Source of the DNA: a bacterium
GTDB taxonomy: Bacteria; UBP6; UBA1177
DNA: 64,000 nucleotides
Assembly (NCBI GenBank): GCA_017961325.1
Contig: JAGCXM010000015.1
Location: forward strand, 73,408 to 137,407
Direction: 5' to 3'
Every line of letters begins with the position of its first letter. The stretch's first letter is position 1. This document shows, piece after piece, positions 14,874 through 63,380 of the stretch. The notes beneath the pieces were generated by a model. That model saw nothing but the letters and a program-made list of their open reading frames with translations, was not told where the DNA came from and did not search any database. Position numbers and translations under genes: made by a program.

Positions 14874-16568
14874 TTATTTTAAAGTTTTTTCGAAACTGTC
14901 TTTCAGCGTGACGATTCTGTTGACGACGATTTTTTCCGGCGTCGAATCCTTGTCGATGCAGAAGTAACCTACTCTCTCAAACTGGAACTGCCTGCCTGTC
15001 TCAAGGTTCCTGAGGTTGGTTTCGGCATAGGCATCGACGATCTGAAGCGAATTCTTGTTCATGTTTTCTATGAAATCGTGGCCTTCCTCGACTTCGAAAG
15101 GATCTTCCATTTCAAAGAGATTTTCATATATTCTTGCTTCGATTTTCAAACAATTACGGGCATTTACCCAGTGAATCGTTCCTTTGACCTTTCTGCCGTC
15201 GCTGGACCAGCCGCCTTTTGTCGCCGGATCATAGGTGCAGTGAAGCTCCTTTATCGAACCGTCTTCGTTTTTGACGACTTCTGTGCAGGTGATGTAGTAA
15301 GCCGAACGGAGTCTGACCTCTTTTCCGGGAGCGAGCCTGTGGAATTTTGCCGGAGGCTCTTCCATGAAGTCCTTGCGCTCGATGTAAAGCTCTTTCGAGA
15401 AGGATACGAGCCTTTTCGCCGAATTTTCGTCTTCTGGGTTGTTTACAGCCTCGAATTCCTCGGTCTGACCTTCCGGATAGTTAGTAATGACGACCTTCAG
15501 CGGATCGAAAACTCCCATGAATCTTTCGGCTTTCTTGTTGAGATCTTCCCTGACGCAGTGTTCGAGAAGAGCGAGCGAAACCGTGCTGTTTCTCTTTGCT
15601 ACGCCGACTCTTTCAGCAAAATCCCTAATAGATTCAGGAGTATATCCGCGGCGTCTGATTCCTGCGATAGTCGGCATTCTCGGATCATCCCAGCCGGAAA
15701 CGTATTTTTCATCGACGAGTTTTTTGAGAAATCTCTTGCTCATTACGGTGTTCGTGAGGTTTAGACGGGCGAATTCGATCTGCTGAGGCTTCTTTTCGAT
15801 ACCTATAGCTTCTAAGAACCACTCGTAAAGCGGCCTGTGTGCTTCAAATTCGAGGGTGCATATCGAGTGAGTGATCCCTTCTATAGCGTCGCTCTGACCG
15901 TGCGTGAAGTCGTAAGTCGGATAGATGCACCATTTGCTGCCGGTTCTGTGATGCTCGACCTTTCTGATGCGGTACATGACCGGATCGCGCAGAAGAACGT
16001 TAGGATGAGCCATGTCGATTTTTGCGCGGAGCATGTATTCGCCCTCGTTGAACTCTCCGTTCTTCATCCTTTCGAAAAGATCAAGGTTCTCTTCTACGGA
16101 ACGGTTTCTCCACGGACTTTCTTTGCCTGCTCCCGTTGCGGTTCCGCGGTCGCGGCGCATCTCTTCAAGAGTCTGCTGGCAGACGAAAGCCTTTCCCTTT
16201 TTTATAAGTTTGACCGCCCATTCGTAGAGCTGATCGAAGTAACTGGAAGCGTAAAGCACTTTATCTGGTTTGAAACCGAGCCATCTGATGTCGTCCTGAA
16301 TCGAATCGACGTATTCGACATCCTCTTTTTCAGGGTTCGTGTCGTCGAAACGGAGGTTGCATTTGCCGCCGTACTGTTTCGCAAGACCGAAATTCAGGCA
16401 TATCGACTTCGCGTGTCCGATATGCAGGTATCCGTTCGGTTCAGGCGGGAAACGGGTCTGGATCGCGGTGTGTTTGCCGCTCTCAAGGTCGGCATCGATG
16501 ATCGCACGGATGAAGTTTACAGAAGTTTTTTCTTCCTGATTCTGGATTTCATTGATTTTTTCACTCAT
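14874..16568 (-). CDS. glnS: Glutaminyl-tRNA synthetase
   Basis: Class I aminoacyl-tRNA synthetase charging tRNA-Gln. 564 residues, close to the E. coli enzyme. The nucleotide-binding motif HIGH is at residues 49-52 within [17 protein letters not shown] and the KMSKS-equivalent is VMSKR. The anticodon-binding beta barrels fill the C-terminal 220 residues. GlnRS rather than GltX is supported by the [14 protein letters not shown] signature and IRWLGF. Presence of GlnS suggests direct Gln charging. RBS GAGGT lies 5 nt from the ATG. It is monocistronic, convergent with the serine-hydrolase block and divergent from the coiled-coil gene. Confidence 0.96.
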
Positions 16569-19115: not shown

Positions 19116-20192
19116 TCATAAAAAAAACAGTTCCACGGCTTTCTGCTTGAAGTGATTCCAGTCAAAAAGCGAAGCTCTTTCCGAGACTTCATTTCTAAGC
19201 GAAAAATCGGGGTTCTCGGCGAAATTTTTAATAAAATCGGATAGTTTCCCGTCTTCATAAAATAAGCCGGCAAATTTATCCTGCGGAAAAATCTCAGGAT
19301 AACTCAATCTTTTCGGCAGAACCGGAATCACTCCGGCCGAAGCCGCTTCAAGAACGCTTATTCCGAAAAATTCGTGTTTTGAAGTGACCGGTAGAATGTC
19401 GCAGCCGGCAATCAGAGACTTGTAATCATCGTATTTTTCAACATAACCGAATGAAATTATTTCATTTTTCAGTTTTTCACGTGCAACTTCGAAAATTCCG
19501 GGACTCGTCGATTTTTCTTCGCCGGCAACGACAAGCTGAAAATTGATCCCAGCTTCTTTCAGACGAAACATCGTCCCGAAAAAAGTTTCAGGATCCTTGT
19601 CGTATTCCCAGCGGTGATTCCATAATATTCTCAGCACGTTACCTTTAGCAGTTTCTGATTTTGGAATCATATTCACCCCCGGATAAAGCACTTTCGATTT
19701 TTTGTAAATTCCATCGATTCTGCCAGTCAGCCTGTGATCCGGAAAAGAGCGGAGAAAACCTTCCAAAGCGGTAAAAAAACTCTCTCTGTTAAATTCCGAA
19801 TTGAAAAGCGCAGTATCGGAAACAAGAGCCGAAGTGAAGTTGATGAAAGAGTAGTGCATATCGGTTTTTGAAGGTTCCCTGTCGTCTTCAGACCAGGGAT
19901 AGGCCAGTTGGTTTTCGTGAAAATAAGTAACGAAGCGTGTTTCAGGCATTTTCGGCAGGACAAGCGACTTCAGAAGCGCCGTGTCGGTAAGCGACGAAGC
20001 AACAATCGTATCGAATTTTTCTCCGCTTTTTTCGATCATCCCTGCAAACGTGACGGCAGAACCGTGCATGCGCCACTTCCAGTGCCGGCCTTGAAGCACA
20101 AACAGCTGAATTTGTTCAGGAAAACATTTTATGAAACCGTCGGCGAAATATTTGTGGCTGCCTGAATAGTAAGGCTCGAGAAAGGCAAACAT
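19116..20192 (-). CDS. tRNA-queuosine alpha-mannosyltransferase-like glycosyltransferase (QTMAN/GTDC1 family, DUF3524)
   Basis: 358 residues from ATG 20192, which overlaps the TGA of the upstream gene by one base (TGATG); a GTG three bases earlier is disfavoured. The N-terminus (FAFLEPYYSGSHK) and HWKWRM match the DUF3524 domain of animal GTDC1. The C-terminal GT4 Rossmann domain carries NHRWEYDKDPETFF and HEFFGISVLEAASAG, the nucleotide-sugar binding region. Animal QTMAN transfers mannose from GDP-mannose to queuosine in tRNA-Asp. By homology this protein may glycosylate a queuosine-type base or another acceptor; that is inference. ManC, which makes GDP-mannose, is encoded elsewhere in the window (61570-62622). 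Confidence 0.83.
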   Translation of the reverse strand: MFAFLEPYYSGSHKYFADGFIKCFPEQIQLFVLQGRHWKWRMHGSAVTFAGMIEKSGEKFDTIVASSLTDTALLKSLVLPKMPETRFVTYFHENQLAYPWSEDDREPSKTDMHYSFINFTSALVSDTALFNSEFNRESFFTALEGFLRSFPDHRLTGRIDGIYKKSKVLYPGVNMIPKSETAKGNVLRILWNHRWEYDKDPETFFGTMFRLKEAGINFQLVVAGEEKSTSPGIFEVAREKLKNEIISFGYVEKYDDYKSLIAGCDILPVTSKHEFFGISVLEAASAGVIPVLPKRLSYPEIFPQDKFAGLFYEDGKLSDFIKNFAENPDFSLRNEVSERASLFDWNHFKQKAVELFFL

Positions 20193-21307
20193 CACTTCTC
20201 CGCAGAGTCTCCGGAAGAAACCTCAGGCTTTTCACCGTTGTAGAAATCGGACGCCTTGTATCTTTTAAGAACTTCGTCCAGAACGATTTTAAGCATTGCA
20301 AAAAGCGGAACCGCCGTGAGCACACCTAAAAAACCGCCTATTTCTGCTCCGGCGAAAAGGGCGATAATGACGAAAACCGGATTTACGTTCACTTTCTTGC
20401 CTACAATGTTGGGAGTTATGAAAATGGTGTCGCAAACCTGAATTATCACGAAAATAATCAGGACCTTGAACATTCCTACCGCTCCGCCGCTGATGAGAGC
20501 GAGGATAAGCGAAATTGAAATGCCGGTAAAAAGCCCGACATACGGCACGAAACAGAGCGTACCGATCATAATTCCAAGATTCCCGCCGCCCTTTATTCCG
20601 GCAACCGTGAAAAGAACGGCATAGAGAGAACCGAGAACTATGCATACCGTAAGCTGACCGCGGATGAATCCTGAGAAAATTTTGTCGAATCTGAGTATCC
20701 AATCTTTCGCCGAAGGCTGGATTTTAGGCGGAATTAGAGAAAAAATAGCCCTGTTGATCGCCTGAAAGCGGGAACTTACGAAGAAGGTTATGACAACAAA
20801 AATCAAAGCGTCGAGTATTAGCGAAATAATTGAAGAAGTCTGCGTCCAGATTACGGAAATGGCTTTGGAAAGGAAAGTCGAAAGTGAAGCGGCATGAGTT
20901 CCTATAGCCGAGACAAGCTCTTCCTGACTGACAAGTTCGCTCAAATTCACATCGAACCTGACAGCCTGCGAATTGGCGAATTCCCAGAGAGACATCATTG
21001 CCGGTTTCATATCAACATTGCTCAGCTGAAGAATGATTTCCGGAAGTATCGCAAGAAGGAGCACTGCAACGACAAGAGCTATCAGCACGATCGAAAGAAT
21101 AGTTGTAAAAGTGCGCGGAATCTTTAGCTTTTTAGAAAAAAAAGCGACTATCGGCTCAATCGCGTCGGCAGTGATGAAAGAGGCTATGAGAATTGAAACC
21201 ATCGTAGGCGCATAGACGAAAGCGAGAACAAAAAGAGCGAGCAGAAGAAGCGGAATCCATCCTTTTCTGTCAAACAGGAATCTGTTTATTTTTTCTTTCG
21301 TAATCAT
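20192..21307 (-). CDS. AI-2E family permease-like membrane protein
   Basis: 371 residues with about eight hydrophobic segments in the PF01594 pattern: two N-terminal helices, a long soluble loop (residues about 105-160), then a cluster of helices with the conserved GGGNLGIMIG and FVPYVGLFTGI region and the PNIVGKKVNVNP loop before the last helices. Members export small molecules, Na+/H+ or AI-2, but most are unassigned. A GGGGG-type RBS precedes the ATG. It sits in the middle of a three-gene minus-strand operon and is translationally coupled to the glycosyltransferase downstream. Substrate not predictable. Confidence 0.88.
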   Translation of the reverse strand: MITKEKINRFLFDRKGWIPLLLLALFVLAFVYAPTMVSILIASFITADAIEPIVAFFSKKLKIPRTFTTILSIVLIALVVAVLLLAILPEIILQLSNVDMKPAMMSLWEFANSQAVRFDVNLSELVSQEELVSAIGTHAASLSTFLSKAISVIWTQTSSIISLILDALIFVVITFFVSSRFQAINRAIFSLIPPKIQPSAKDWILRFDKIFSGFIRGQLTVCIVLGSLYAVLFTVAGIKGGGNLGIMIGTLCFVPYVGLFTGISISLILALISGGAVGMFKVLIIFVIIQVCDTIFITPNIVGKKVNVNPVFVIIALFAGAEIGGFLGVLTAVPLFAMLKIVLDEVLKRYKASDFYNGEKPEVSSGDSAEK

Positions 21308-21322
21308 ATTAACCCCCGGAAA

Positions 21323-21804
21323 TCACGAAAATTTCAGAACAATGTTTCCAGGCACCGGATCCAGTTTTCTGATTTTTACATTTGCCTGTTTCAGCATCAG
21401 TTTCGAGGCTTTAACCGCATCGGTATCGGCGTATTTGTCCGAAAGATAGACGATTTCCGAAATTCCGGCCTGAATTATGGCTTTCGCACACTCGTTGCAG
21501 GGAAAAAGCGCGACGTAAATCGTGCAGCCGCGGAGATTCTGAATCGAATTCAATATCGCGTTGAGTTCCGCGTGAACAACGAAAGGATATTTCGTGTCGA
21601 GATATTCGCCTTCACGCTCCCACGGCAGGGCATCGTCGCCGCAACCTGCCGGAAAACCGTTGTAGCCTACACCGACGATCCGGTGTTCACCGTTCACGAT
21701 GCACGCTCCGACCTGCGTGTTCGGATCTTTCGAGCGCTGTGCGCTGAGCAGTGCAACGCCCATAAAATACTGGTCCCACGAAATGTAATTTTCTCTCTTC
21801 GCCA
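21323..21804 (-). CDS. Deoxycytidylate (dCMP) deaminase, ComEB-like
   Basis: Zn-dependent deaminase converting dCMP to dUMP, precursor of dTMP. The ATG at 21804 was chosen because GGAGG (21813-21809) lies 4 nt upstream; the upstream codons of the open frame are not needed by the family. 160 residues. The zinc motif is complete: His78-Ala-Glu80 and Pro102-Cys103-x-x-Cys106. [13 protein letters not shown] and GYNGFP are typical of dCMP deaminase. First gene of an operon with the AI-2E permease and the glycosyltransferase; no biochemical link among the three is evident. Confidence 0.93.
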
Positions 21805-21854
21805 TGCAGCCTCCGCACAAAAAGATGAAAAACAATCAAAAATCCCGCTATTTT

Positions 21855-30375: not shown

Positions 30376-31206
30376 ATGAACGACGTCCAGAATTATGTCG
30401 ATAACAGAAACATCACAGTCGATCAGGTCGGAATCTGGGATATCGAGTACCCGATAGTCGTAAAAGACAGAACAAACGAAATCCAGCACACCGTGGCGAA
30501 AGTCGATCTGACCGTTATGCTGCTGCCTGAGTTCAAAGGAACGCACATGAGCCGGATCATCGAGGTTCTGAACCGTTTTCACGGGCAGATAACGACCGAT
30601 AACATACCTGAATTATTAATGAAAACACGGGAACATTTAGGCTCGCCGCAAGCGTTGGCGGCGCTGCGTTTTCCTTATTTTATCGAGAAAAAGGCACCTG
30701 TTTCCGGAATTTCCTCGATGTTTTCAGCGAATGTTCTTTTCAGCGGTTTCAGCGACGAAAAAGCGGGATACAGCTTCATTCTCGGGCTTCGCGTGCCGGT
30801 AACGACGCTTTGTCCGTGTTCAAAAGAGATAAGCGCGTTCGGAGCACACAACCAGCGCAGTTTCGTCACGCTTTACGTGCAGTTCAGGGATTTCATATGG
30901 ATTGAAGAGATGATTTCGGTCATCGAGGAAAGCGCAAGCTGCGAAATTTACCCGCTTCTCAAACGCCCTGACGAGAAATTCGTCACCGAAAAAGCGTTTT
31001 CCAATCCCGTTTTCGCAGAAGACGTCGTCCGCAACATTTCCGAAAAAATGATGGCTGACAAAAGAATAAAATGGTTTATGGTCGAAACTTTGCACTTGGA
31101 GAGCATTCATTCACACAACGCCTACGCGAGAATCGAGCGCTTCAAGACGAAATCGACCGTTCTCAACGAGCATCTGCGCATGTTCAAAGGATTTCCGAGA
31201 CAATAA
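30376..31206 (+). CDS. folE2: GTP cyclohydrolase FolE2
   Basis: Type IB GTP cyclohydrolase, making 7,8-dihydroneopterin triphosphate, first intermediate for folate and for 7-deazapurines such as queuosine. 276 residues, normal for COG1469. The metal/active-site Cys is Cys146 in LCPCSKEIS, followed by FGAHNQRSFVT; the C-terminus has the LHLESIHSHNAYA motif. FolE2 uses metals other than zinc and often substitutes for FolE under zinc limitation. It sits 27 bp after a lipoprotein gene and 22 bp before the subtilase, with no visible pathway partners, so its place looks incidental. A distant GAGG (spacing about 10) is the only RBS. Confidence 0.94.
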   Translation: MNDVQNYVDNRNITVDQVGIWDIEYPIVVKDRTNEIQHTVAKVDLTVMLLPEFKGTHMSRIIEVLNRFHGQITTDNIPELLMKTREHLGSPQALAALRFPYFIEKKAPVSGISSMFSANVLFSGFSDEKAGYSFILGLRVPVTTLCPCSKEISAFGAHNQRSFVTLYVQFRDFIWIEEMISVIEESASCEIYPLLKRPDEKFVTEKAFSNPVFAEDVVRNISEKMMADKRIKWFMVETLHLESIHSHNAYARIERFKTKSTVLNEHLRMFKGFPRQ

Positions 31207-31228: not shown

Positions 31229-33313
31229 ATGAAAAAATTGTTTATTCTTTCATTCGTTCTGTTCTTCTTTTCTCTTCTTTCTGCCGAAACGCTCTACTAC
31301 TATGCCGAAGGCAAAAAAGTTGTTTTGACCGAAGACTTTTCAAGCTATTCCTTCATCAGGACAAATCAGACAAAGGCTAATTTCGTTTTTCCCGAAAACG
31401 TAAAAATCATCAAAAAGCACAAAAATGCATCAATTATCGAAACAGGCGACAAATCAGCCGTCGAACAGCTGAAAAAAAACGGGATTCTTTTCCCGGCCTA
31501 CATCAAAGAAGGTGTCAAAATCCATGCAAGCGGTCAGCTTTTCGTCAAAATTCCAGGGAAACCGAATGCCGAAAATGCCAAAAAATGGTGTAAAAACAAC
31601 GGATTAACCTTTATAAAGCAATATAAATTCGTTCCGGAATGGTACCTTGTTGCGGTAGAAGAAAACCCGATAAAAAAAGCTGCCGGACTTGTAGAAAAAA
31701 AGATTGCGGAGGCTGCGGAACCCGATTTTTTTATCCGGCTTCAAAAAAGGGCCTACAAGCCGAATGATCCTCTCTTCAAAAATCAGTGGCATCTTCACAA
31801 CGACGGCTCAAGCTCTTCCGTTTCGGGCAGCGACCATGCACATGTTGCTGAAGCATGGGAAGCGTTAAAGGCTTTAAAAGGCAGTATCGGCGGGAAAGGC
31901 GTAAATCTTGCAATTATCGACGACGGATTCGACCTCAATCACGAAGATTTTCAGGGAAGGTTCACCGACGGTTACGATTTTGCCGGCGATGACGATGATC
32001 CGACTTATGAAAACAATAAGTGGCAGCCCGATTATTCGGATATGCACGGAACATGCTGCGCCGGAGTCGCAGGAGCTGCGACTGACAACGGAAAAGGAGT
32101 TTCAGGTGCATGTCCGGAATGCACGCTGATTCCGATCAGAATGGATATGATGACATATTCCCTCGATTCCGCCGCAATCGAAAGTTTTGAATGGGCGGCT
32201 GATCACGGCGCAGACATTATTTCAAACAGCTGGGGACCTGAAGACGGAACCGGTGAAAAGGTCAATATGAACACAACTCTTAAAAATCTTGTAGCAAAAC
32301 TGGCTACGGAAGGGAGAAACGGCAAAGGAATCATCATTCTTTTTGCAGCCGGAAACGGTGAGGAAAGCATTGAAACCGACGGTTTTGCGAGCAATCCGAA
32401 TGTTTTCGCGATAGGTGCGACAAACGCAGGCGGAAACCGCTCATACTATTCTGATTACGGCCCGTCACTCGATTTTATGGCCCCGAGCGGCGACTATAAC
32501 AACTGGGGATCTCTAATAGACGGCATCTGGACCATTGACAACACCGGCAGTGACGGATACAACAGCGGAAGTTCATCACAGGGAGACAAAAAGGGCAACT
32601 ACACCAACGATTTTAACGGTACTTCTTCGGCATGTCCGCTTGCAGCAGGCATAACAGGACTTGTTCTTTCGGCAAATCCGAATCTTACCCGTGACGAAGT
32701 TTATCAAATCTATGTCAAAACTTCAGACAAAGTCGGTTTAACCGGATATAATGATGACGGATTCAGCGAAAAATACGGCTACGGCAGAATCAACGCTTGC
32801 AAAGCTGTCAAAAGAGCTCTAAAAAAGGCTGGAAAAGATGTAACACAGGTAATCTGTACCGGAGACCCTGATCCGATTGACGACACAGACACCGGCGATA
32901 CAGGTGACACGACCGACACGACTGACACAGCCGATACCGGAGATTCTACTGACACGACAGATACGGCAGACACCGCGGATACCGGAGATTCTACCGACAC
33001 GACAGATACGGCAGACACCGCGGATACCGGAGATTCTACTGACACGACCGACACGACTGACACCGCAGATACCGGAGATTCTACTGACACGACAGATACG
33101 GCAGACACCGCAGATACCGGAGATTCGGCCGACACAGCCGACACTGACACTCAGGAACAAGAAACCTGCGGCAACGGAATTGTCGAAGGTTACGAACAGT
33201 GCGATGACGGCAATACTATAAACGGCGACGGATGCTCGAAATTCTGTATGTTTGAAGAAAAGGACAGCGCAAAAATAATATCAAACGACGGATGCTCGAT
33301 GCTGTTTTTATAA
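31229..33313 (+). CDS. Secreted subtilisin-like serine protease with Thr/Asp repeat tail and Myxococcus Cys-rich repeat
   Basis: 694 residues with signal peptide (ends SLLSA). Residues about 20-165 form a propeptide; the S8 domain spans about 175-530. The catalytic triad is Asp231 (AIIDDG), His273 (MHGTCCAGVAG) and Ser466 (NGTSSACPLAAG), with the oxyanion Asn in AAGN. A low-complexity tail of D-T-G-D-S-T-D units (about residues 548-642) leads to a C-terminal Myxococcus cysteine-rich/DUF4215 repeat (CGNGIVEGYEQCDDGNTING). This architecture is usual for surface-displayed proteases of myxobacterial type. RBS AAAGGAG precedes the ATG. No partner inhibitor is encoded beside it. Confidence 0.93.
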   Translation: MKKLFILSFVLFFFSLLSAETLYYYAEGKKVVLTEDFSSYSFIRTNQTKANFVFPENVKIIKKHKNASIIETGDKSAVEQLKKNGILFPAYIKEGVKIHASGQLFVKIPGKPNAENAKKWCKNNGLTFIKQYKFVPEWYLVAVEENPIKKAAGLVEKKIAEAAEPDFFIRLQKRAYKPNDPLFKNQWHLHNDGSSSSVSGSDHAHVAEAWEALKALKGSIGGKGVNLAIIDDGFDLNHEDFQGRFTDGYDFAGDDDDPTYENNKWQPDYSDMHGTCCAGVAGAATDNGKGVSGACPECTLIPIRMDMMTYSLDSAAIESFEWAADHGADIISNSWGPEDGTGEKVNMNTTLKNLVAKLATEGRNGKGIIILFAAGNGEESIETDGFASNPNVFAIGATNAGGNRSYYSDYGPSLDFMAPSGDYNNWGSLIDGIWTIDNTGSDGYNSGSSSQGDKKGNYTNDFNGTSSACPLAAGITGLVLSANPNLTRDEVYQIYVKTSDKVGLTGYNDDGFSEKYGYGRINACKAVKRALKKAGKDVTQVICTGDPDPIDDTDTGDTGDTTDTTDTADTGDSTDTTDTADTADTGDSTDTTDTADTADTGDSTDTTDTTDTADTGDSTDTTDTADTADTGDSADTADTDTQEQETCGNGIVEGYEQCDDGNTINGDGCSKFCMFEEKDSAKIISNDGCSMLFL
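32936..33115 (+). repeat. Four tandem 45-bp coding repeats (15-residue Thr/Asp units)
   Basis: The motif ACCGGAGATTCTACYGACAC recurs at 32936, 32981, 33026, 33071 and 33116, an exact 45-bp period, with partial units on both sides. It encodes the D-T-G-D-S-T-D-T-T-D-T linker of the subtilase. The near-identical DNA makes it a slippage-prone variable-number repeat. It also produces a long antisense open frame that is an artefact. Confidence 0.9.
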
Positions 33314-49971: not shown

Positions 49972-50457
49972 ATGGCAAAAGCAACGATTAAAATCAATCG
50001 TCAGTACTTGAAAGAGATCAAAGAAGTCTGCGAATCTTTCAACTACGACAAGGGACAGCTTATCAATGTCCTTAAAAAGACTCAGGAAAAGATCGGTTAT
50101 CTTCCGGCAGAAGTCCAGATGGTCATCGCGGAAGAACTTAAAGTTCCGGTCGCAAAGGTTTACGGCGTAGTTTCATTCTACTCGTTCTTCACCATGGTTC
50201 CGAAGGGAAAACACCCGATTTCGATCTGTCTCGGAACGGCTTGCTACGTAAGAGGTGCCGAAGGCATTCTCGCTGAAGTCAAAAGACAGCTTGGCATCAA
50301 TCCGGGCGAAACGACTCCGGACGGTCTTTTCTCTCTTGATTGTCTCAGATGCATCGGTGCATGCGGTCTCGCTCCGGTTATCATGATCGGCGAAAAGGTT
50401 TATCCGCGCGTAACGCCGAACAAAGTTAAAGAAATCCTTGACGAATACAGAAAGTAG
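49972..50457 (+). CDS. hydC: NADH-dependent [FeFe]-hydrogenase, NuoE-like subunit (HydC)
   Basis: 161 residues, thioredoxin-like [2Fe-2S] protein of the 24-kDa complex I subunit family. Cluster ligands are Cys86, Cys91, Cys127 and Cys131 (CLGTACYVRG and CLRCIGACGLAP). An N-terminal helical part (residues 10-75) has the typical GYLPAEVQMVIAEELKVP phrase. In trimeric hydrogenases this subunit passes electrons between the NADH module and HydA. AAGGAGG is 9 nt from the ATG. First of four tightly spaced structural genes. Confidence 0.92.
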   Translation: MAKATIKINRQYLKEIKEVCESFNYDKGQLINVLKKTQEKIGYLPAEVQMVIAEELKVPVAKVYGVVSFYSFFTMVPKGKHPISICLGTACYVRGAEGILAEVKRQLGINPGETTPDGLFSLDCLRCIGACGLAPVIMIGEKVYPRVTPNKVKEILDEYRK

Positions 50458-50466
50458 GAGGGTAAA

Positions 50467-50856
50467 ATGGCAGTAAAATCACTCGCTGATCTCAAAAAAA
50501 TGAGCTCGGAATTCAAAAACACCGTTTCTCTCAGAGAGAACGGAGACAATGTCGATTCCCTTATCCAGATCAAAGTCGCTATGGCTACATGCGGAATCGC
50601 AAGCGGCGCGAAAGAAGTTATGGATTTCTACCTTGAAGAACTCGACAAACAGGGAATCAAGGCGGTCGTTACCCAGACAGGCTGCATGGGCTACTGCTAT
50701 GCAGAACCGACGATCGAAGTTAAACTTCCCGGCAAGGATCCTATCGTTTTCGGTCATGTAAATGTCGAAAAAGCAAGCGAAATTCTTGAAAAATACATCA
50801 AGAACGGCGAGCTCGTAGAAGGTATCATCCCGGTTAATTACGAAACGGTTAAATAA
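50467..50856 (+). CDS. Thioredoxin-like (2Fe-2S) ferredoxin domain protein of hydrogenase operon
   Basis: 129 residues. Phrases MATCGIASGAKEVM and TQTGCMGYCYAEP identify the small thioredoxin-fold ferredoxin found between NuoE-like and NuoF-like genes in clostridial hydrogenase operons. Only three Cys are in the expected region (Cys42, Cys73, Cys77), so whether it holds a [2Fe-2S] cluster is open. AGGAGG lies 6 nt before the ATG. It likely mediates or tunes electron flow, but this is context inference. Confidence 0.85.
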   Translation: MAVKSLADLKKMSSEFKNTVSLRENGDNVDSLIQIKVAMATCGIASGAKEVMDFYLEELDKQGIKAVVTQTGCMGYCYAEPTIEVKLPGKDPIVFGHVNVEKASEILEKYIKNGELVEGIIPVNYETVK

Positions 50857-50867
50857 GGGAGTTGAGA

Positions 50868-52664
50868 ATGACACATTACAGATTTCATATTCTCTGCTGC
50901 GGCGGTACAGGCTGCAAAGCTTCGAACAGCGCAGGCATAGTAAGAAAATTCGAAGCCGTTCTTAAAGAAAAGAACATCAACGATGTCCAGGTCATTACGA
51001 CAGGCTGTTTCGGCTTCTGCGAAAAAGGCCCCATCGTTAAAATACTTCCCGACAACACTTTCTACGTTCAGGTTAAGGAAGAAGATGTCGAGAACATCGT
51101 AAACGAGCACATCATCAAAGGAAGAAAGGTCGAAAGACTTCTCTATACCGACCCGAAATCGGAAGGTCACGTTTCCGACTCCAAACACATGGGTTTCTAC
51201 AAAAAACAGATGAGAATCGCTCTTCGTAACTGCGGTTTCATCAACCCCGAAGACATTCGTGAATACATCGCAAGAGACGGCTACGCTGCACTCGGCAAAG
51301 TCCTTACCGAAATGACTCCGGAAGCTGCTATCGCTGAAATGGAGAAATCAGGTCTCCGCGGCAGAGGCGGCGCAGGTTTCCCGACCGGCACGAAATGGAA
51401 ACTGGCAAGAACTCTGGTTCCGAATGCTGAACAGAAATACGTCATCTGCAACGCTGACGAAGGTGACCCGGGTGCATTCATGGACAGATCAATACTCGAA
51501 GGCGACCCGCACTCGATCATTGAAGCTATGGCTATCTGCGGATACTGCATCGGCGCAACGAAAGGTCTCGTTTACATCAGAGCTGAATATCCGCTTGCAA
51601 TCAGAAGACTCCAGATCGCTATCGATCAGGCTAGAGAATACGGTCTTCTCGGCAAAGGAATCCTCGGCACCGATTTCGAGTTCGACATCGAGCTCAGATA
51701 CGGCGCAGGCGCATTCGTATGCGGTGAAGAAACTGCTCTTATCCACTCGATGGAAGGACAGAGAGGCGAACCGACGGTTAAACCTCCGTTCCCAGCTGTA
51801 AAAGGCTACAAAGGAATGCCCTCCAACGTAAACAACGTCGAAACTTTCGCAAACGTTCCCGTTATCTACCTCAAGGGCGCTGACTGGTTCAACAAGATCG
51901 GAACCGAAAAGTCGAAAGGAACGAAAGTTTTCGCACTTGCCGGCAAAATCAACAACGTCGGTCTTATCGAAGTTCCGATGGGAACGACTCTCCGCGAGAT
52001 CATTTATGAAATCGGCGGCGGAATCAAAGGCGGCAAAAAATTCAAAGCTGTTCAGACCGGCGGACCTTCGGGCGGCTGCCTGACAGAAAAAGACCTCGAC
52101 ACTCCGGTTGACTACGAAAGTCTCGCCAGAGCGAAATCGATCATGGGCTCCGGCGGTATGATCGTTATGGACGAAGACAACTGCATGGTTGCAATCGCGA
52201 AATTCTACCTCGACTTCACAGTCGACGAATCCTGCGGCAAGTGCACTCCGTGCCGCGTCGGCAACAAGAGAATGAACGAGATCCTCGACAAGATAATCAA
52301 AGGCAACGGAACTATGGAAGACGTCGAATTGCTCAAGAACCTTGCAAACGTTATCCAGGACACCGCTCTCTGCGGACTCGGCCAGACGGCTCCGAACCCT
52401 GTTCTTTCGACTCTCAACAACTTCTACGACGAGTATGTTGCTCACGTAAAAGACAAAAAATGCCCGGCAGGACAGTGCAAAGACCTTCTCAGCTATGTCA
52501 TCAATCCTGACAAGTGCATGGGCTGCACGGCATGTGCAAGAAAGTGCCCGGTAGCTGCAATCACAGGTACCGTAAAACAGCCGCACTCAATCGATCAGGC
52601 AAAATGTATCAAATGCGGAACCTGTCTTGATACATGTAAATTCGGCGCAATTAGCAAACAGTAG
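50868..52664 (+). CDS. hydB: NADH-dependent [FeFe]-hydrogenase, NuoF-like flavoprotein subunit (HydB)
   Basis: 598 residues from ATG 50868; the TTG at 50862 is inside the GGGAG RBS. The N-terminal 95 residues are a thioredoxin-like [2Fe-2S] domain (CCGGTGCKAS, TGCFGFCEKG). Next is the FMN/NADH module with GRGGAGFPTGTKW, CNADEGDPGAFMDR and GAGAFVCGEETAL. After the SLBB region comes the [4Fe-4S] motif Cys456-x2-Cys459-x2-Cys462. A C-terminal bacterial-type ferredoxin with two CxxCxxCxxxCP motifs (from Cys550) completes it. Oxidises or reduces NAD(H), and in bifurcating enzymes couples this to ferredoxin. Fifteen bp before hydA. Confidence 0.94.
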   Translation: MTHYRFHILCCGGTGCKASNSAGIVRKFEAVLKEKNINDVQVITTGCFGFCEKGPIVKILPDNTFYVQVKEEDVENIVNEHIIKGRKVERLLYTDPKSEGHVSDSKHMGFYKKQMRIALRNCGFINPEDIREYIARDGYAALGKVLTEMTPEAAIAEMEKSGLRGRGGAGFPTGTKWKLARTLVPNAEQKYVICNADEGDPGAFMDRSILEGDPHSIIEAMAICGYCIGATKGLVYIRAEYPLAIRRLQIAIDQAREYGLLGKGILGTDFEFDIELRYGAGAFVCGEETALIHSMEGQRGEPTVKPPFPAVKGYKGMPSNVNNVETFANVPVIYLKGADWFNKIGTEKSKGTKVFALAGKINNVGLIEVPMGTTLREIIYEIGGGIKGGKKFKAVQTGGPSGGCLTEKDLDTPVDYESLARAKSIMGSGGMIVMDEDNCMVAIAKFYLDFTVDESCGKCTPCRVGNKRMNEILDKIIKGNGTMEDVELLKNLANVIQDTALCGLGQTAPNPVLSTLNNFYDEYVAHVKDKKCPAGQCKDLLSYVINPDKCMGCTACARKCPVAAITGTVKQPHSIDQAKCIKCGTCLDTCKFGAISKQ

Positions 52665-52679
52665 GCAAAGGAGAAACAC

Positions 52680-54494
52680 ATGGATATGATTAAAATTACA
52701 ATAGACGGCAAAGTTTTTGAAGTAGAGAAGGGAATAACCGTTCTCGAAGCCGCAAGAAAGAACGGAATCAAAATTCCGACGCTCTGCCACATGAATCTTT
52801 CCGGCCTTAGATTCGTGAACAAACCCGCTTCCTGCCGTGTTTGTGTCGTTGAGATCGAAGGAAGAAGAAACCTCGCTCCGGCTTGTGCAACCGACGTTAT
52901 GGACGGAATGGTCATCAAAACGCACTCGATCAGAGTTCTTAACGCAAGAAGAACCATCATCGAGCTCCTTCTTTCCGACCATCCGAAAGATTGTCTTGTC
53001 TGCATGAAGTCAGGCAACTGCGAACTTCAGGACATCGCTCACGAGTTCGGTGTTAGAGAAGTCCGCTACGACGAAAACTGCGCAATGAGCACATACAGAA
53101 AGGATAAATCACCGTCCATCATCAGAGATATGGACAAATGCATCATGTGCCGCCGCTGCGAAACGATGTGCAACGAAATCCAGACTGTCGGCGCCCTTTC
53201 GGCTGTCAACAGAGGTTTCAACAGCGTCGTTGCTCCGGCTTTCGAGCAGAATCTTGTTGATTCGGCTTGCACGTTCTGCGGACAGTGCCTTGCAGTTTGC
53301 CCGGTCGGCGCACTTACGGAAGTTGACCACACCTGGAACGTCATCCAGGCTATAAACGATCCTAAGAAAGTCGTTCTCGTTCAGACCGCTCCGGCAGTCA
53401 GAGTCGCGCTCGGCGAAGAATTCGATATGGAACCCGGAACGATCGTTACCGGCAAAATGGCTGCTGCTCTCAGAAGACTCGGCTTCGACTACGTTTTCGA
53501 TACCGACTTCGCAGCTGACCTTACCATCATGGAAGAAGGTTCGGAACTTCTCGACAGACTTTCGAGATTCCTTAACGGCGACAAGACCGTTAAGCTTCCG
53601 ATCCTCACCTCCTGCTGCCCGGCATGGGTAAACTTCTTCGAATACAATTTCCCGGATATGCTCGATGTTCCGTCGACCGCACGTTCTCCGCAGGAAATGT
53701 TCGGACCTATCGCGAAGACCTACTTCCTTGAGAAACTTCGCGAAAAACCCGAATACAAAGACCTTAAGAGAGAAGATATGGTCGTTGTTTCGATCATGCC
53801 GTGCGTCGCAAAGAAATACGAGTGCTCGAGACCGGAACTTTCCTACGAAGGCAACCCGGATGTCGACTACTCGCTTTCGACCAGAGAGCTCGCTGCTTTC
53901 ATCAAGAGAATGAACATCGACTTCAACTCGCTTCCTGACGAAGATTTCGACAGACCGCTCGGCGAATCGACCGGTGCAGCTGTTATCTTCGGAGCATCCG
54001 GCGGCGTTATCGAAGCTGCCGTCAGAACCGCTTACGAGCTTCTGACCAAACAGCAGTGCCCGAGTGTTGATTTCAAACAGATCCGTGGTCTTGAAGGAAT
54101 GCGTGAAGCAATAGTTCCGCTTCCTGAAGGAATGCCGCTCAAAGAGATCAAGATCGGTATCGCAAACGGCCTTGCAAACGCAAGAAAGCTTCTTGAAGCA
54201 GTTCAGCGCGGCGAATGCGACTATCAGGCAATCGAAGTCATGGCTTGCCCCGGCGGCTGCATCGGCGGCGCAGGTCAGCCCTACCACCACGGCGACAGCA
54301 CCATCATCAAAAAGAGACAGGAAGCTATCTACCGTGAAGACGAAGGCAAACCGATCAGAAAATCTCACGAGAACCCCTACATCCAGAAACTTTACGAGGA
54401 GTTCCTCATCAAACCGCTTGGCGAAAAATCGCACCACCTCCTCCACACTCACTACTTCAAGAAGAGAGAGAAATACGAGGAAGTCGACGATTAG
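52680..54494 (+). CDS. hydA: [FeFe]-hydrogenase catalytic subunit HydA
   Basis: 604 residues. Catalyses 2H+ + 2e- to H2 and the reverse. N-terminal [2Fe-2S] domain (LCHMN..ASCRVC..PACAT), the His-Cys3 cluster motif HPKDCLVCMKSGNC, then two [4Fe-4S] ferredoxin motifs (CIMCRRCETMC, CTFCGQCLAVC). H-cluster ligands are Cys312 (TSCCPAW), Cys375 (MPCVAKK), Cys523 and Cys527 (ACPGGCIGGAGQP); the L1 motif has Ala instead of the commoner Gly. The extra C-terminal [2Fe-2S] domain of Thermotoga HydA is absent. GGAG is 6 nt from the ATG. Last gene of the operon, followed by a strong terminator. HydE, HydF and HydG must be elsewhere. Confidence 0.96.
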   Translation: MDMIKITIDGKVFEVEKGITVLEAARKNGIKIPTLCHMNLSGLRFVNKPASCRVCVVEIEGRRNLAPACATDVMDGMVIKTHSIRVLNARRTIIELLLSDHPKDCLVCMKSGNCELQDIAHEFGVREVRYDENCAMSTYRKDKSPSIIRDMDKCIMCRRCETMCNEIQTVGALSAVNRGFNSVVAPAFEQNLVDSACTFCGQCLAVCPVGALTEVDHTWNVIQAINDPKKVVLVQTAPAVRVALGEEFDMEPGTIVTGKMAAALRRLGFDYVFDTDFAADLTIMEEGSELLDRLSRFLNGDKTVKLPILTSCCPAWVNFFEYNFPDMLDVPSTARSPQEMFGPIAKTYFLEKLREKPEYKDLKREDMVVVSIMPCVAKKYECSRPELSYEGNPDVDYSLSTRELAAFIKRMNIDFNSLPDEDFDRPLGESTGAAVIFGASGGVIEAAVRTAYELLTKQQCPSVDFKQIRGLEGMREAIVPLPEGMPLKEIKIGIANGLANARKLLEAVQRGECDYQAIEVMACPGGCIGGAGQPYHHGDSTIIKKRQEAIYREDEGKPIRKSHENPYIQKLYEEFLIKPLGEKSHHLLHTHYFKKREKYEEVDD

Positions 54495-59831: not shown

Positions 59832-61406
59832 TTATTCGCCGCAGCCGCCCTGAGGAGCAGGTTTGTCAGCAGCTTTGATCGCTTTTTCCGCAGCACAGCC
59901 TTTAAGATCCTTGTTGTGAGCGCAGATCTGTCTCTGGATGTCGTTTGCAGCAACGCCGCCGCCCTGGAATTTATTGTTGAAAATCCATGTCGGGCTGCCG
60001 CCGATGCCCATAGCGTTTCCGATTTTGATGTTTTCGCTGTGGAGTTTTACACCTTCGCCGCCGTTGAAGCATTTTTCGATGACGTCAGCTTTGATTTTGC
60101 CCGTTGCGCATTTCTGCCAGTCGGTTCCTCTGATGTTTTCGTTGCGGCACCAGATGTAATTCATGTAATCTTTCGGGTAATGTTTGATCGCGCAGAGTTC
60201 ACGGATGTTCTCGTCAACTTCGCCCTGACCGTGAAGCGCCTGGAACTTGCCGGGTTCGGTCTCGTTTGCGATGTAATTTACATGGAAATCAAGTTTGTCA
60301 TCCTTGAAAGCTTCAAAAACTTCCTTCATTGCATTAAGCGCCATAACGCCGTAAGGACACTGGCTCATAACGAAGAGGTCGACTCTTGCCGGAATTTCCT
60401 TTCTGCAGAGCATCTCTTCCTTGCAGTCGTCGTCGTCACAGTCGACTTTGCCGTTACCGGTATCATCGATGCCGTTGTCACAGATTTCTTTGGTGGGGTC
60501 AAATTTCGCACCGACTCTCAAAAGAATGAAATCGCCGGCTTTTACAGCCCAACGCGAAATCTTCTGATAGTCTTCTTCTTTTTCAACAGCCGGATCAAAA
60601 GCTAAAATAGGAAGAGTTTTGAAACCTGCTTCCGCGAATGTCTTGTACATTCCTTTAGCTTTTTCATCGGAGTAGTCAAGAGTTTCCGGAACAAGTCCCG
60701 GGAACATGTTCTTAAGCTGGCTGATCAATGCTTCTGGCCTGCACTCTTTGCATCTTTTGTCGGAAATAACCGTAACTTTTACCTTTGCAGGTTCCGGAAT
60801 CGAGCTGCATACTTCAGGTTTTGCCGTTTTGTATTCGTTGCAGATCGCTCTCATAAAGTCGTTGGAAGTTCTTCCGCCTCTGTAAGGATTCCCTGCAAGG
60901 AAAATCGTCGGGGAACCGCTTGCACCCTTTGATTGCGAGAACTTGTAGCTTTCAAGAAGAATCTGTTCGCCTTCGTCACCGTCTTTGCATGCTTTGACTT
61001 TTGCGATGTCAAGATTGAGTTCTTTAGCACAGCTTTCAAAGTTTTCGGGAATCTTTCTCGATTCTTTGTTCATGCAGACGATAAGATTCATGTAATCTTT
61101 CGGCATGTGTTTTTTGGCACAGAGGAAAATTTTGTCGCCGTTGCGCTCTGTTTCTCCGTGCATCGGCATCCAGCCGCCGTCCTTTTCGTAGCCGATGTAG
61201 TTGAGTTCGAAATCGACAGCGTTGCCGAGTTTGTCGAGAGTGGGTTTGATTGCGTTCATAACCTGAACACCGTAAGGACACTTACTCATAACGTGGAAAG
61301 AAAGTTTGACTTTCTCTTTCGCTTCCGGTTCCTTTTTTTCGCCGCATGAAACAAGCATGCCGATGCAAAGAGCTACAACCGAAGCTGCAATCAATAATTT
61401 TTTCAA
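59832..61406 (-). CDS. Lipoprotein with three thioredoxin-like domains (two DsbA/GILT-like CPYG, one CKEC)
   Basis: 524 residues from TTG 61406, with AGGAGGA 4 nt upstream, giving a signal peptide with lipobox LVSC (Cys21). Domain 1 (about 33-195) has MSKCPYG at Cys43, HGE..LCAKKHMPKDYMN and the cis-Pro loop GSP166. Domain 2 (about 205-300) is a thioredoxin-like fold with Cys219-Lys-Glu-Cys222 and TLPIL. A Ca-binding-like segment (CDNGIDDTGNGKVDC, 309-323) precedes domain 3 (about 340-505), a clear duplicate of domain 1 with MSQCPYG at Cys350 and GGSP472. The usual second active-site Cys (CxxC) is replaced by Gly in domains 1 and 3. Likely periplasmic thiol-redox protein. Confidence 0.87.
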   Translation of the reverse strand: MKKLLIAASVVALCIGMLVSCGEKKEPEAKEKVKLSFHVMSKCPYGVQVMNAIKPTLDKLGNAVDFELNYIGYEKDGGWMPMHGETERNGDKIFLCAKKHMPKDYMNLIVCMNKESRKIPENFESCAKELNLDIAKVKACKDGDEGEQILLESYKFSQSKGASGSPTIFLAGNPYRGGRTSNDFMRAICNEYKTAKPEVCSSIPEPAKVKVTVISDKRCKECRPEALISQLKNMFPGLVPETLDYSDEKAKGMYKTFAEAGFKTLPILAFDPAVEKEEDYQKISRWAVKAGDFILLRVGAKFDPTKEICDNGIDDTGNGKVDCDDDDCKEEMLCRKEIPARVDLFVMSQCPYGVMALNAMKEVFEAFKDDKLDFHVNYIANETEPGKFQALHGQGEVDENIRELCAIKHYPKDYMNYIWCRNENIRGTDWQKCATGKIKADVIEKCFNGGEGVKLHSENIKIGNAMGIGGSPTWIFNNKFQGGGVAANDIQRQICAHNKDLKGCAAEKAIKAADKPAPQGGCGE

Positions 61407-61569: not shown

Positions 61570-62622
61570 TTAAAGCAGCCTCTCGAGATTGTTTTTAGAC
61601 AAAAATTCAGTAATTTCGCGCATTTTCGCATGATCATCCAATGATGCCGAAAATATTGCGTCGTCAGTCGCCACAAGAAGCTCCCGCTCTTTTTCAAACA
61701 TGACTATCTCTTTTTCCGTCAGGTTTACGGCTAAAGAGTTCCGGCAGTTTATAAAATCAGCGTTCCCGACTTTGGCGTTTCCAGAACCGTCTTTCGGCAG
61801 AAGCTCGAAGTATGCAAGCCAGCTTCCGACATCGCTCCAGCCGAAATTTCCGGGAACGGCAAATAGCGGCTTTTCCGTCTTTTCCATTATTGCGTAATCA
61901 AAAGATATTGAATTTATTGAAGAATAAAGTTTTTCTTCAGGAAGTTCAAACGATTCGGAAGAACTTATTTTGTCATAAGTTTCCGGGGTCAGCCGTTTAA
62001 ATTCTTCCAGCATCGAATTCAGCGAAAAAATGAAAATCCCGCCGTTCCAGAGGTAATTTCCGCTCTTAACAAATTTTTCAGCCTTTTCAAAGCACGGTTT
62101 TTCTTCAAAAGATTCAACTCCGAAGATTTCGCTTTCAACAACTTCCCCCTTTTTTATGTAACCGAAACCTGTTTCGGGATAAGCCGGCTCGATTCCGACC
62201 GTTCCGATATAATTTTTGTTTTTATCAAGAAAATCAAGCCCTTTTTCAACGGTTTTTCTGAACCTTTCAGGATAAGCGACATAGTGGTCCGACGGCAGGA
62301 CAAGAAGCGCCCTATCTTCACAACACATTGATTTTATTGCAAAAAGTGAAAGAAGGATGCACGGCGCGGTATTCCTTCCGCAGGGCTCGTAGATAACTTT
62401 CACTTTTTCGTATTTTCCGGCATCCCGCTCTATTTCAGCGCGCTGTTTTAAGGAAGAAACTATCGTGATTTCTTCTGCAAGCGGCATTATCCTTTCAATA
62501 GTTTCGGCAAGGAGCGTCTTTTCCGAAAAAAGCGCCAGACTCTGCTTTGCCTTCGATTCTCTCGAAAGCGGCCAGAACCTTTTACCGCTGCCGCCTGCCA
62601 TAATCACAGCCGAAAGTTTCAT
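61570..62622 (-). CDS. manC: Mannose-1-phosphate guanylyltransferase (nucleotidyltransferase part only)
   Basis: Makes GDP-mannose from mannose-1-P and GTP. 350 residues, shorter than bifunctional ManC (about 470) because the C-terminal cupin is missing. Signature VIMAGGSGKRFWPLSRESKAKQ lies at the N-terminus, then EPCGRNTAPCI, LPSDHYV and ETGFGYI, with WNGGIFIF and FGWSDVGSW. A short left-handed helix-like region follows. The start overlaps the stop of the upstream gene by one base (TGATG). The missing isomerase-type cupin is encoded by that upstream gene. Provides sugar donor for polysaccharide or tRNA mannosylation. Confidence 0.92.
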   Translation of the reverse strand: MKLSAVIMAGGSGKRFWPLSRESKAKQSLALFSEKTLLAETIERIMPLAEEITIVSSLKQRAEIERDAGKYEKVKVIYEPCGRNTAPCILLSLFAIKSMCCEDRALLVLPSDHYVAYPERFRKTVEKGLDFLDKNKNYIGTVGIEPAYPETGFGYIKKGEVVESEIFGVESFEEKPCFEKAEKFVKSGNYLWNGGIFIFSLNSMLEEFKRLTPETYDKISSSESFELPEEKLYSSINSISFDYAIMEKTEKPLFAVPGNFGWSDVGSWLAYFELLPKDGSGNAKVGNADFINCRNSLAVNLTEKEIVMFEKERELLVATDDAIFSASLDDHAKMREITEFLSKNNLERLL

Positions 62623-63380
62623 CAGACTCTCCCGTAAATGTCTTCTATTCTTCTGACGTCGTCTTCGCCGAGGTAGCTTCCGAGCTGGAGTTCAACGATA
62701 ACCATAGATGAATCTTCCGTTTCTGCGCGGTGTTTTTCATGCTTTTGGATCGTGAAGACAAGTCCCTTTTCAGCCTTGAATCTGCGGTCTCCGATTACGA
62801 CGAACCCGCCTCCTTCCGCAATCATCCACGTTTCGCTTCTGAATTCATGCGTCTGCAGACTCAATTTCTGATGAGGTGCGACAAAAATGTGTTTTATTTT
62901 GTAATCTTCGGCATTTACGAGAGTTTTCCACCATCCCCACGGACGGGTGTCGAACGATTTTGTGTTGACAACTCTGTGTTCATAAAAATCGCAGAGTTCA
63001 TCAAGCGAAAAGTTTGAAATATCGCATTCCGAGCAGTTGAGACCGTTAATATTATCAATCAAACCGGCATATTTTTCTTTCAAATCGAAATCGAAAGAAT
63101 AGAACACGAACTGCCTGAAAAAGGCTCTGTTGACAAACGGAAGAAACGAAAAAGTATGAAGGGCATCAAAGCTTTTCATGTCGGTTTTTGTTTCAGAACA
63201 GAGTTTTTCAATGTCGCGGATTGAAAGATTTTTTATATCCAAAGCAGAAATATCAAGAATTTCAGCGTAAAAATCTTCGCGGGAATTCACTTCAGAAGCC
63301 AGTTTTTGAATAAAATCATTAGTGAATTCTGAATTTTCAGTCAACTCGTCGGCAGACTGGGTAATAAAAAGAATTTTCAT
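62622..63380 (-). CDS. Cupin (mannose-6-phosphate isomerase type II-like) with novel N-terminal region
   Basis: 252 residues. The C-terminal 110 residues match the cupin that normally ends bifunctional ManC/AlgA: RPWGWWKTLVNAEDYKIKHI, QTHEFRSETWMIAEGG and LGEDDVRRIEDIYGR, with metal-ligand His/Glu residues (H..RSE). The N-terminal 140 residues are a different domain; MKILFITQS and DALHTFSFLPF resemble the N-terminal Rossmann half of GT4 glycosyltransferases, but no full match is seen. Such a half could be a scaffold or remnant. GGAGG is 6 nt from the ATG. Translationally coupled to manC. Confidence 0.8.
   Translation of the reverse strand: MKILFITQSADELTENSEFTNDFIQKLASEVNSREDFYAEILDISALDIKNLSIRDIEKLCSETKTDMKSFDALHTFSFLPFVNRAFFRQFVFYSFDFDLKEKYAGLIDNINGLNCSECDISNFSLDELCDFYEHRVVNTKSFDTRPWGWWKTLVNAEDYKIKHIFVAPHQKLSLQTHEFRSETWMIAEGGGFVVIGDRRFKAEKGLVFTIQKHEKHRAETEDSSMVIVELQLGSYLGEDDVRRIEDIYGRV

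Follow-up and report, generated by a model that had tools for sequence, protein, structure and literature searches.

A bacterial member of the QTMAN glycosyltransferase family, predicted to mannosylate tRNA queuosine, in a UBP6-type bacterium expected to make queuosine

The stretch of DNA analysed here, 64,000 nucleotides in length and hereafter called the window, encodes a protein that truly belongs to the QTMAN family, and the bacterium that hosts it is expected to make queuosine (Q). The most likely function of the gene product, to which we give a probability of about 0.65, would be to alpha-mannosylate, with GDP-mannose as the donor, Q34 of a tRNA (probably that for Asp, by analogy with the vertebrate enzyme). 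QTMAN, or GTDC1, is the vertebrate tRNA-queuosine alpha-mannosyltransferase (Zhao et al. 2023, as cited in PMC12873605); it makes mannosyl-queuosine (manQ) in tRNA-Asp (PMC12518689), the vertebrate tRNA for which manQ is also described elsewhere (PMC8654956). Of the Q derivatives, galQ and manQ are assigned to vertebrates and gluQ to bacteria in a review (PMC12710937). In the literature searched, mostly papers available without subscription, no report of bacterial manQ or of an assayed bacterial enzyme was found, and a published case is possible.

The QTMAN-family gene and its product

The gene is one intact frame of 358 codons, read from an ATG at 20192 to a TGA stop at 19118-19116 (Table 1). 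The coordinates given in the earlier note were correct; the strand, which had been left unstated, is the minus strand, the plus strand across 19116-20192 being closed by 10 stops. The motifs on which that note had based its comparison with animal GTDC1 are all present in the product, namely EPYYSGSHK (residues 6-14), HWKWRM (37-42), HRWEYDKDPETFF (193-205) and HEFFG (273-277).

Table 1. Features of the window, with coordinates on the forward strand and the evidence for each.
Feature	Coordinates	Strand	Evidence
QTMAN-family GT4/GT-B glycosyltransferase, 358 aa	19116..20192	-	PF12038 + PF00534, AlphaFold, Foldseek
N-terminal (acceptor-side) domain, residues about 2-174	19671..20189	-	47-sequence alignment
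C-terminal (donor-side) GT4 domain	19119..19670	-	PF00534 stretch 180-340, column contents
AI-2E-transporter-family membrane protein (permease)	20192..21307	-	PF01594, 144.4 bits
dCMP/cytidine-type deaminase, first gene of putative operon	21323..21811	-	PF00383, 93.6 bits
GlnRS	14874..16568
FolE2 GTP cyclohydrolase	30376..31206	+	PF02649, 290 bits; NF010200, 265.7 bits, over cut-off
Subtilisin-like protease with myxobacterial Cys-rich acidic repeat	31229..33313	+
Urocanate hydratase HutU, 680 aa	33323..35365	+	424 bits, over cut-off; match begins at residue 108
NuoE-like thioredoxin-fold ferredoxin	49972..50457	+
NuoF-like subunit	50862..52664	+
Group A6 NADH-dependent [FeFe] hydrogenase	52680..54494	+	884.9 bits, over cut-off
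Protein with GILT-like thiol reductase domain	59832..61406	-	Weak match to acidic disulfide-type repeat
Mannose-1-phosphate guanylyltransferase-like (ManC-like) ORF	61570..62622	-	TIGR01479, 255 bits, profile 2-349 of 467
Cupin ORF, mannose-6-phosphate isomerase part of split ManC	62622..63380	-	PF01050, 78.8 bits; TIGR01479 positions 360-467

That the ORF is not a chance reading frame follows from its Pfam matches. PF12038 (QTMAN_N, 'tRNA-queuosine alpha-mannosyltransferase N-terminal') covers residues 3-173 with profile positions 3-168 of 168 (186.9 bits, cut-off 25, E 3.3e-55), and PF00534 (Glycos_transf_1) covers residues 180-340 with 59.8 bits; none of the NCBIfam models scored over its cut-off against the protein. 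Congeneric orthologues share 76-84% identity with the window protein, and the nucleotide differences from one of them (L004) fall mostly at codon position 3 (134, vs 68 at positions 1 and 2 together). The gene was found in 12 of the 14 other congeners searched, the two without it being genomes that are 72-77% complete. Although the distribution within the phylum is patchy (17 of 28 genomes), the intact frame, its conservation in the genus, the bias towards the third codon position and the incompleteness of the two genomes lacking it make it barely credible that the copy is stray or has lost its function and plays no part in tRNA.

The AlphaFold model, computed from a 47-sequence alignment, has a pLDDT of 90.9 and a pTM of 0.89, and confidently predicts a GT-B glycosyltransferase. 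When the model was compared with the PDB by Foldseek, GT4/GT-B enzymes were retrieved at 9-16% identity and with E values down to 3.6e-13; glycogen synthase, MshA, SenB and BshA headed the list, and the methylmannose polysaccharide mannosyltransferase 7qsg ranked 33rd. By sequence, no full-length relative was found in the PDB. These retaining GT4 enzymes share the GT-B fold and the donor-domain match with the window protein, but they act on other acceptors and mostly use UDP- or ADP-sugar donors. The highest Kyte-Doolittle mean over 19 residues is 1.64, and therefore there is no clear membrane segment. No match to a defence system was found for the protein.

In the 47-sequence alignment, 40 columns are invariant and are equally split between the acceptor and the donor halves. 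On the acceptor side the invariant residues include S12-H13, W38-KWRM-42, HENQ 92-95, Y98-P99, N118 and F130-N-S132, whose columns are also near-invariant in a non-redundant set of 72 sequences. On the donor side they include WNHRWE.DK.P..F, FFG and LP, and this domain of the window protein contains W191-NHRWEYDK-199 and E274-x7-E282. R194-x4-K199 is spaced like the diphosphate clamp of GT4 enzymes, and E274-x7-E282 like their EX7E motif; the corresponding roles may be assigned to these residues by analogy with other members of GT4. In other homologues residue 274 is often Asp and residue 282 sometimes Gln, whereas both are Glu in the window protein. Of 42 comparisons, 36 showed the acceptor half to be the better conserved of the two, as is expected if the enzyme has one fixed acceptor.

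A very divergent QTMAN_N protein is encoded in another genome of the same phylum (L101, G345:C8; 32% identity, end branch 2.8). It has WRLNY in place of WKWRM and EENFG in place of HEFFG, and is possibly a paralogue with another function.

Neighbouring genes and distribution of the family

The permease gene lies upstream of the QTMAN gene on the same strand, and its TGA overlaps the QTMAN ATG by one base (TGATG). Because this overlap is kept at six of eight congeneric loci (L004-L007, L010 and L012), co-translation of the two genes is plausible. Translational coupling had been proposed for both the permease and the deaminase; it is plausible for the former, whereas the latter, 15 bases upstream of the permease, is arranged as in an operon and does not overlap. 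Among the best 80 of at least 584 relatives, the permease recurs as a neighbour only in UBP6 genomes. A functional tie of the permease or the deaminase to queuosine was considered and rejected, the permease being a neighbour, among the gathered loci, in UBP6 only. Clustering of the genes adjacent to the gathered loci gave no neighbour conserved across phyla, and an apparent neighbour cluster in 18 loci proved to be an antisense frame of the QTMAN gene itself. No polysaccharide gene cluster adjoins the QTMAN gene.

FolE2 catalyses the first step in both folate and queuosine synthesis. The FolE2 and ManC genes to which the earlier note pointed as possible suppliers of queuosine precursor and GDP-mannose are both real, and lie outside the putative QTMAN operon, at about 10 kb and about 41 kb from it, respectively. 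ManC is split over two ORFs with a one-base overlap, a guanylyltransferase of 350 aa and a cupin/isomerase of 252 aa; the former scores below the whole-protein cut-off of TIGR01479, its isomerase part being on the separate ORF, and the latter has about 140 extra N-terminal residues.

Some other features of the window may be recorded here. The three ORFs at 49972-54494 look like a trimeric bifurcating hydrogenase set, and the late beginning of the profile match in HutU suggests an N-terminal extension or a start called too early. A subtilisin-like protease and a protein with a GILT-like domain are also listed in Table 1.

The family was scanned in species-level genomes with six exact peptide patterns, and at least 584 relatives were retrieved. 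The best 80 of them come from UBP6, Bacteroidota, Balneolota, Neomarinimicrobiota, Desulfuromonadia, Desulfobacteraceae, Halobacteriovorax, Aminicenantes, KSB1 and two Bacillota. In a tree of 87 sequences the grouping is largely by phylum (7 label changes, compared with a mean of 30 after shuffling), which indicates mostly vertical inheritance within phyla, and no viral or plasmid copies of the gene were found in the search. The QTMAN family is therefore old, phylum-clustered and widespread in bacteria, and the window protein is not an unusual member of it. While the earlier note had rightly recognized a bacterial homologue, it had overstated how rare this is, given that members occur commonly in several phyla of bacteria and that the functional name is already in Pfam; since Pfam names the domain after the queuosine function, the gene is ordinary as an annotation.

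Queuosine genes in this and other genomes

The source assembly is 2.35 Mb in size and 97.9% complete, and the nearest named relatives of the genome are ruminant-gut UBP6 bacteria. The earlier note had tied its reading to the presence of queuosine genes in the genome, naming tgt, queA and queG. Both Tgt, at 511 bits against the equivalog model TIGR00430, and QueA, at 414 bits against its own equivalog model, are encoded, so that the refuting finding named in that note, a genome lacking queuosine genes, does not arise. QueG was not found in this 97.9% complete assembly, and for this reason QueH, the known alternative epoxyqueuosine reductase for the last step, was sought and found; QueC is present as well. 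The Tgt sequence reads GGLSVGEE at the site that is Val in bacterial enzymes of the preQ1 type. With Tgt, QueA, QueC and QueH present, and with a Tgt of the Val type, de novo synthesis of queuosine is expected. The four genes are located on four contigs (Tgt on C46, QueA on C25, QueH on C33 and QueC on C17) and do not form a single operon. Escherichia coli K-12 makes both Q and GDP-mannose, and Tgt, QueA and QueG were found or are annotated in it.

QueA is specific to Q, and was found in 42 of 44 QTMAN-carrying genomes from many phyla. The carriers with QueA include the cultured Geomonas silvestris Red330, Geotalea toluenoxydans JCM 15764, Peptoclostridium litorale DSM 5388, Geothermobacter hydrogeniphilus HR-1 and Balneola sp. 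EhC07. In UBP6 it is present in 17/17 carriers (one a fragment) vs 8/11 non-carriers, with a Fisher p of 0.05 that is uncorrected for relatedness. No association was observed in 245 Neomarinimicrobiota genomes, where QueA is as common among carriers (74/81, 91%) as among non-carriers (147/164, 90%; p 0.82). The carriers with no detected QueA are seven Neomarinimicrobiota genomes, mostly small assemblies of 1.1-1.4 Mb, and one Aminicenantes genome. In the phylum of Peptoclostridium the comparison is uninformative, because only one of 299 genomes (the centre genome) has the gene. In the carrier Geotalea toluenoxydans (G026, L051), QueA appears in two consecutive pieces (C39:16623-17640, profile positions 1-242 and 244-322), through a frameshift in the gene or a fault in the assembly.

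As regards gene linkage, no match to tgt, queA, queC, queD, queE, queF, queG, queH, folE2 or manC was found in the 873 kb surrounding the 80 relatives (flanks of about 6 kb). Taken together, the co-occurrence and linkage data are compatible with a role in Q modification and do not by themselves establish it, the Neomarinimicrobiota comparison and the search beside the 80 loci both being neutral. These two results and the QueA-negative carriers count against the manQ reading, as does the review's assignment of manQ to vertebrates and of gluQ to bacteria, and the two results are also what would be expected if the enzyme acted on a non-tRNA acceptor, such as a cell-surface glycan, a lipid or a small molecule, and the family name were misleading for bacteria. 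GT4 enzymes are indeed mostly envelope or metabolite enzymes, as are the weak NCBIfam matches. However, the specific QTMAN_N acceptor domain is matched over its full length, its signature is invariant across phyla, the protein has no clear membrane segment, no polysaccharide gene cluster adjoins the gene, and inheritance is mostly vertical; a non-tRNA acceptor is for these reasons improbable. In favour of manQ are the full-length QTMAN_N match, the Tgt, QueA, QueC and QueH genes, QueA in 42/44 carriers and in all 17 carriers of UBP6, the stronger conservation of the acceptor half, the lack of a clear membrane segment, the high-confidence GT-B model, the ManC-like gene in the window and the manQ activity of vertebrate QTMAN.

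Predicted function and its significance

The protein is predicted to be a cytoplasmic, retaining GT-B/GT4 glycosyltransferase that would move alpha-mannose from GDP-mannose onto the cyclopentenediol of queuosine at tRNA position 34, yielding manQ. The target would be one tRNA with a GUN anticodon, probably tRNA-Asp if the analogy with vertebrates holds. The order of domains, with the QTMAN_N acceptor domain (PF12038) ahead of the GT4 donor domain, is common to the window protein and to QTMAN/GTDC1, the likeness to the animal protein being drawn through the Pfam model; unlike the latter, the window protein is bacterial, and belongs to an organism for which de novo synthesis of Q is predicted. 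The earlier functional reading is borne out as to the family and the pathway prerequisites, while the function in bacteria is a prediction from homology: it is from homology that we infer the GDP-mannose donor, the Q-tRNA acceptor, the choice of tRNA and any effect on decoding.

GluQRS is the bacterial glutamyl-Q34 tRNA-Asp synthetase, which decorates the Q34 cyclopentenediol on tRNA-Asp. It is thus a known bacterial enzyme acting at the very site predicted for the window protein. However, GluQRS has an aaRS-like fold and adds glutamate, whereas the window protein is of the GT-B type and matches no GluQRS model. The nearby gene at 14874-16568 is a normal GlnRS.

The donor sugar cannot be read off the sequence, and the enzyme might glycosylate tRNA queuosine with another sugar, or on a tRNA other than tRNA-Asp (Tyr, His or Asn). 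Many nucleotide sugars are used by GT4 enzymes, the closest solved folds are mostly those of UDP- or ADP-sugar users, and the donor-side motif varies within the family (E274 or D274, E282 or Q282). In addition, manQ was mapped to tRNA-Tyr in Aedes aegypti (PMC11705514), which implies that the choice of target shifts within the QTMAN family. On the other hand, the window protein retains E-x7-E and a gene for GDP-mannose supply (ManC-like) is present, and we regard a different sugar or tRNA as unlikely, although somewhat less so than a non-tRNA acceptor. Mannosylation of Q34 is therefore the reading that we prefer.

The proposition that manQ has long existed as a tRNA modification in bacteria, where several phyla would make it (UBP6, Bacteroidota, Balneolota, Neomarinimicrobiota, Desulfuromonadia and others), and that the enzyme of animals derives from this family, is one that we consider evenly balanced. 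Bacterial manQ would be unexpected. If the activity were confirmed, manQ would no longer be an animal-specific mark, and it could be followed back to an origin in bacteria with a Q synthesis of their own. Its role in the decoding of Asp codons would become open to study in simple knock-outs, and gut and rumen bacteria would be a source of glycosylated Q, which is relevant to the salvage of queuine by animals.
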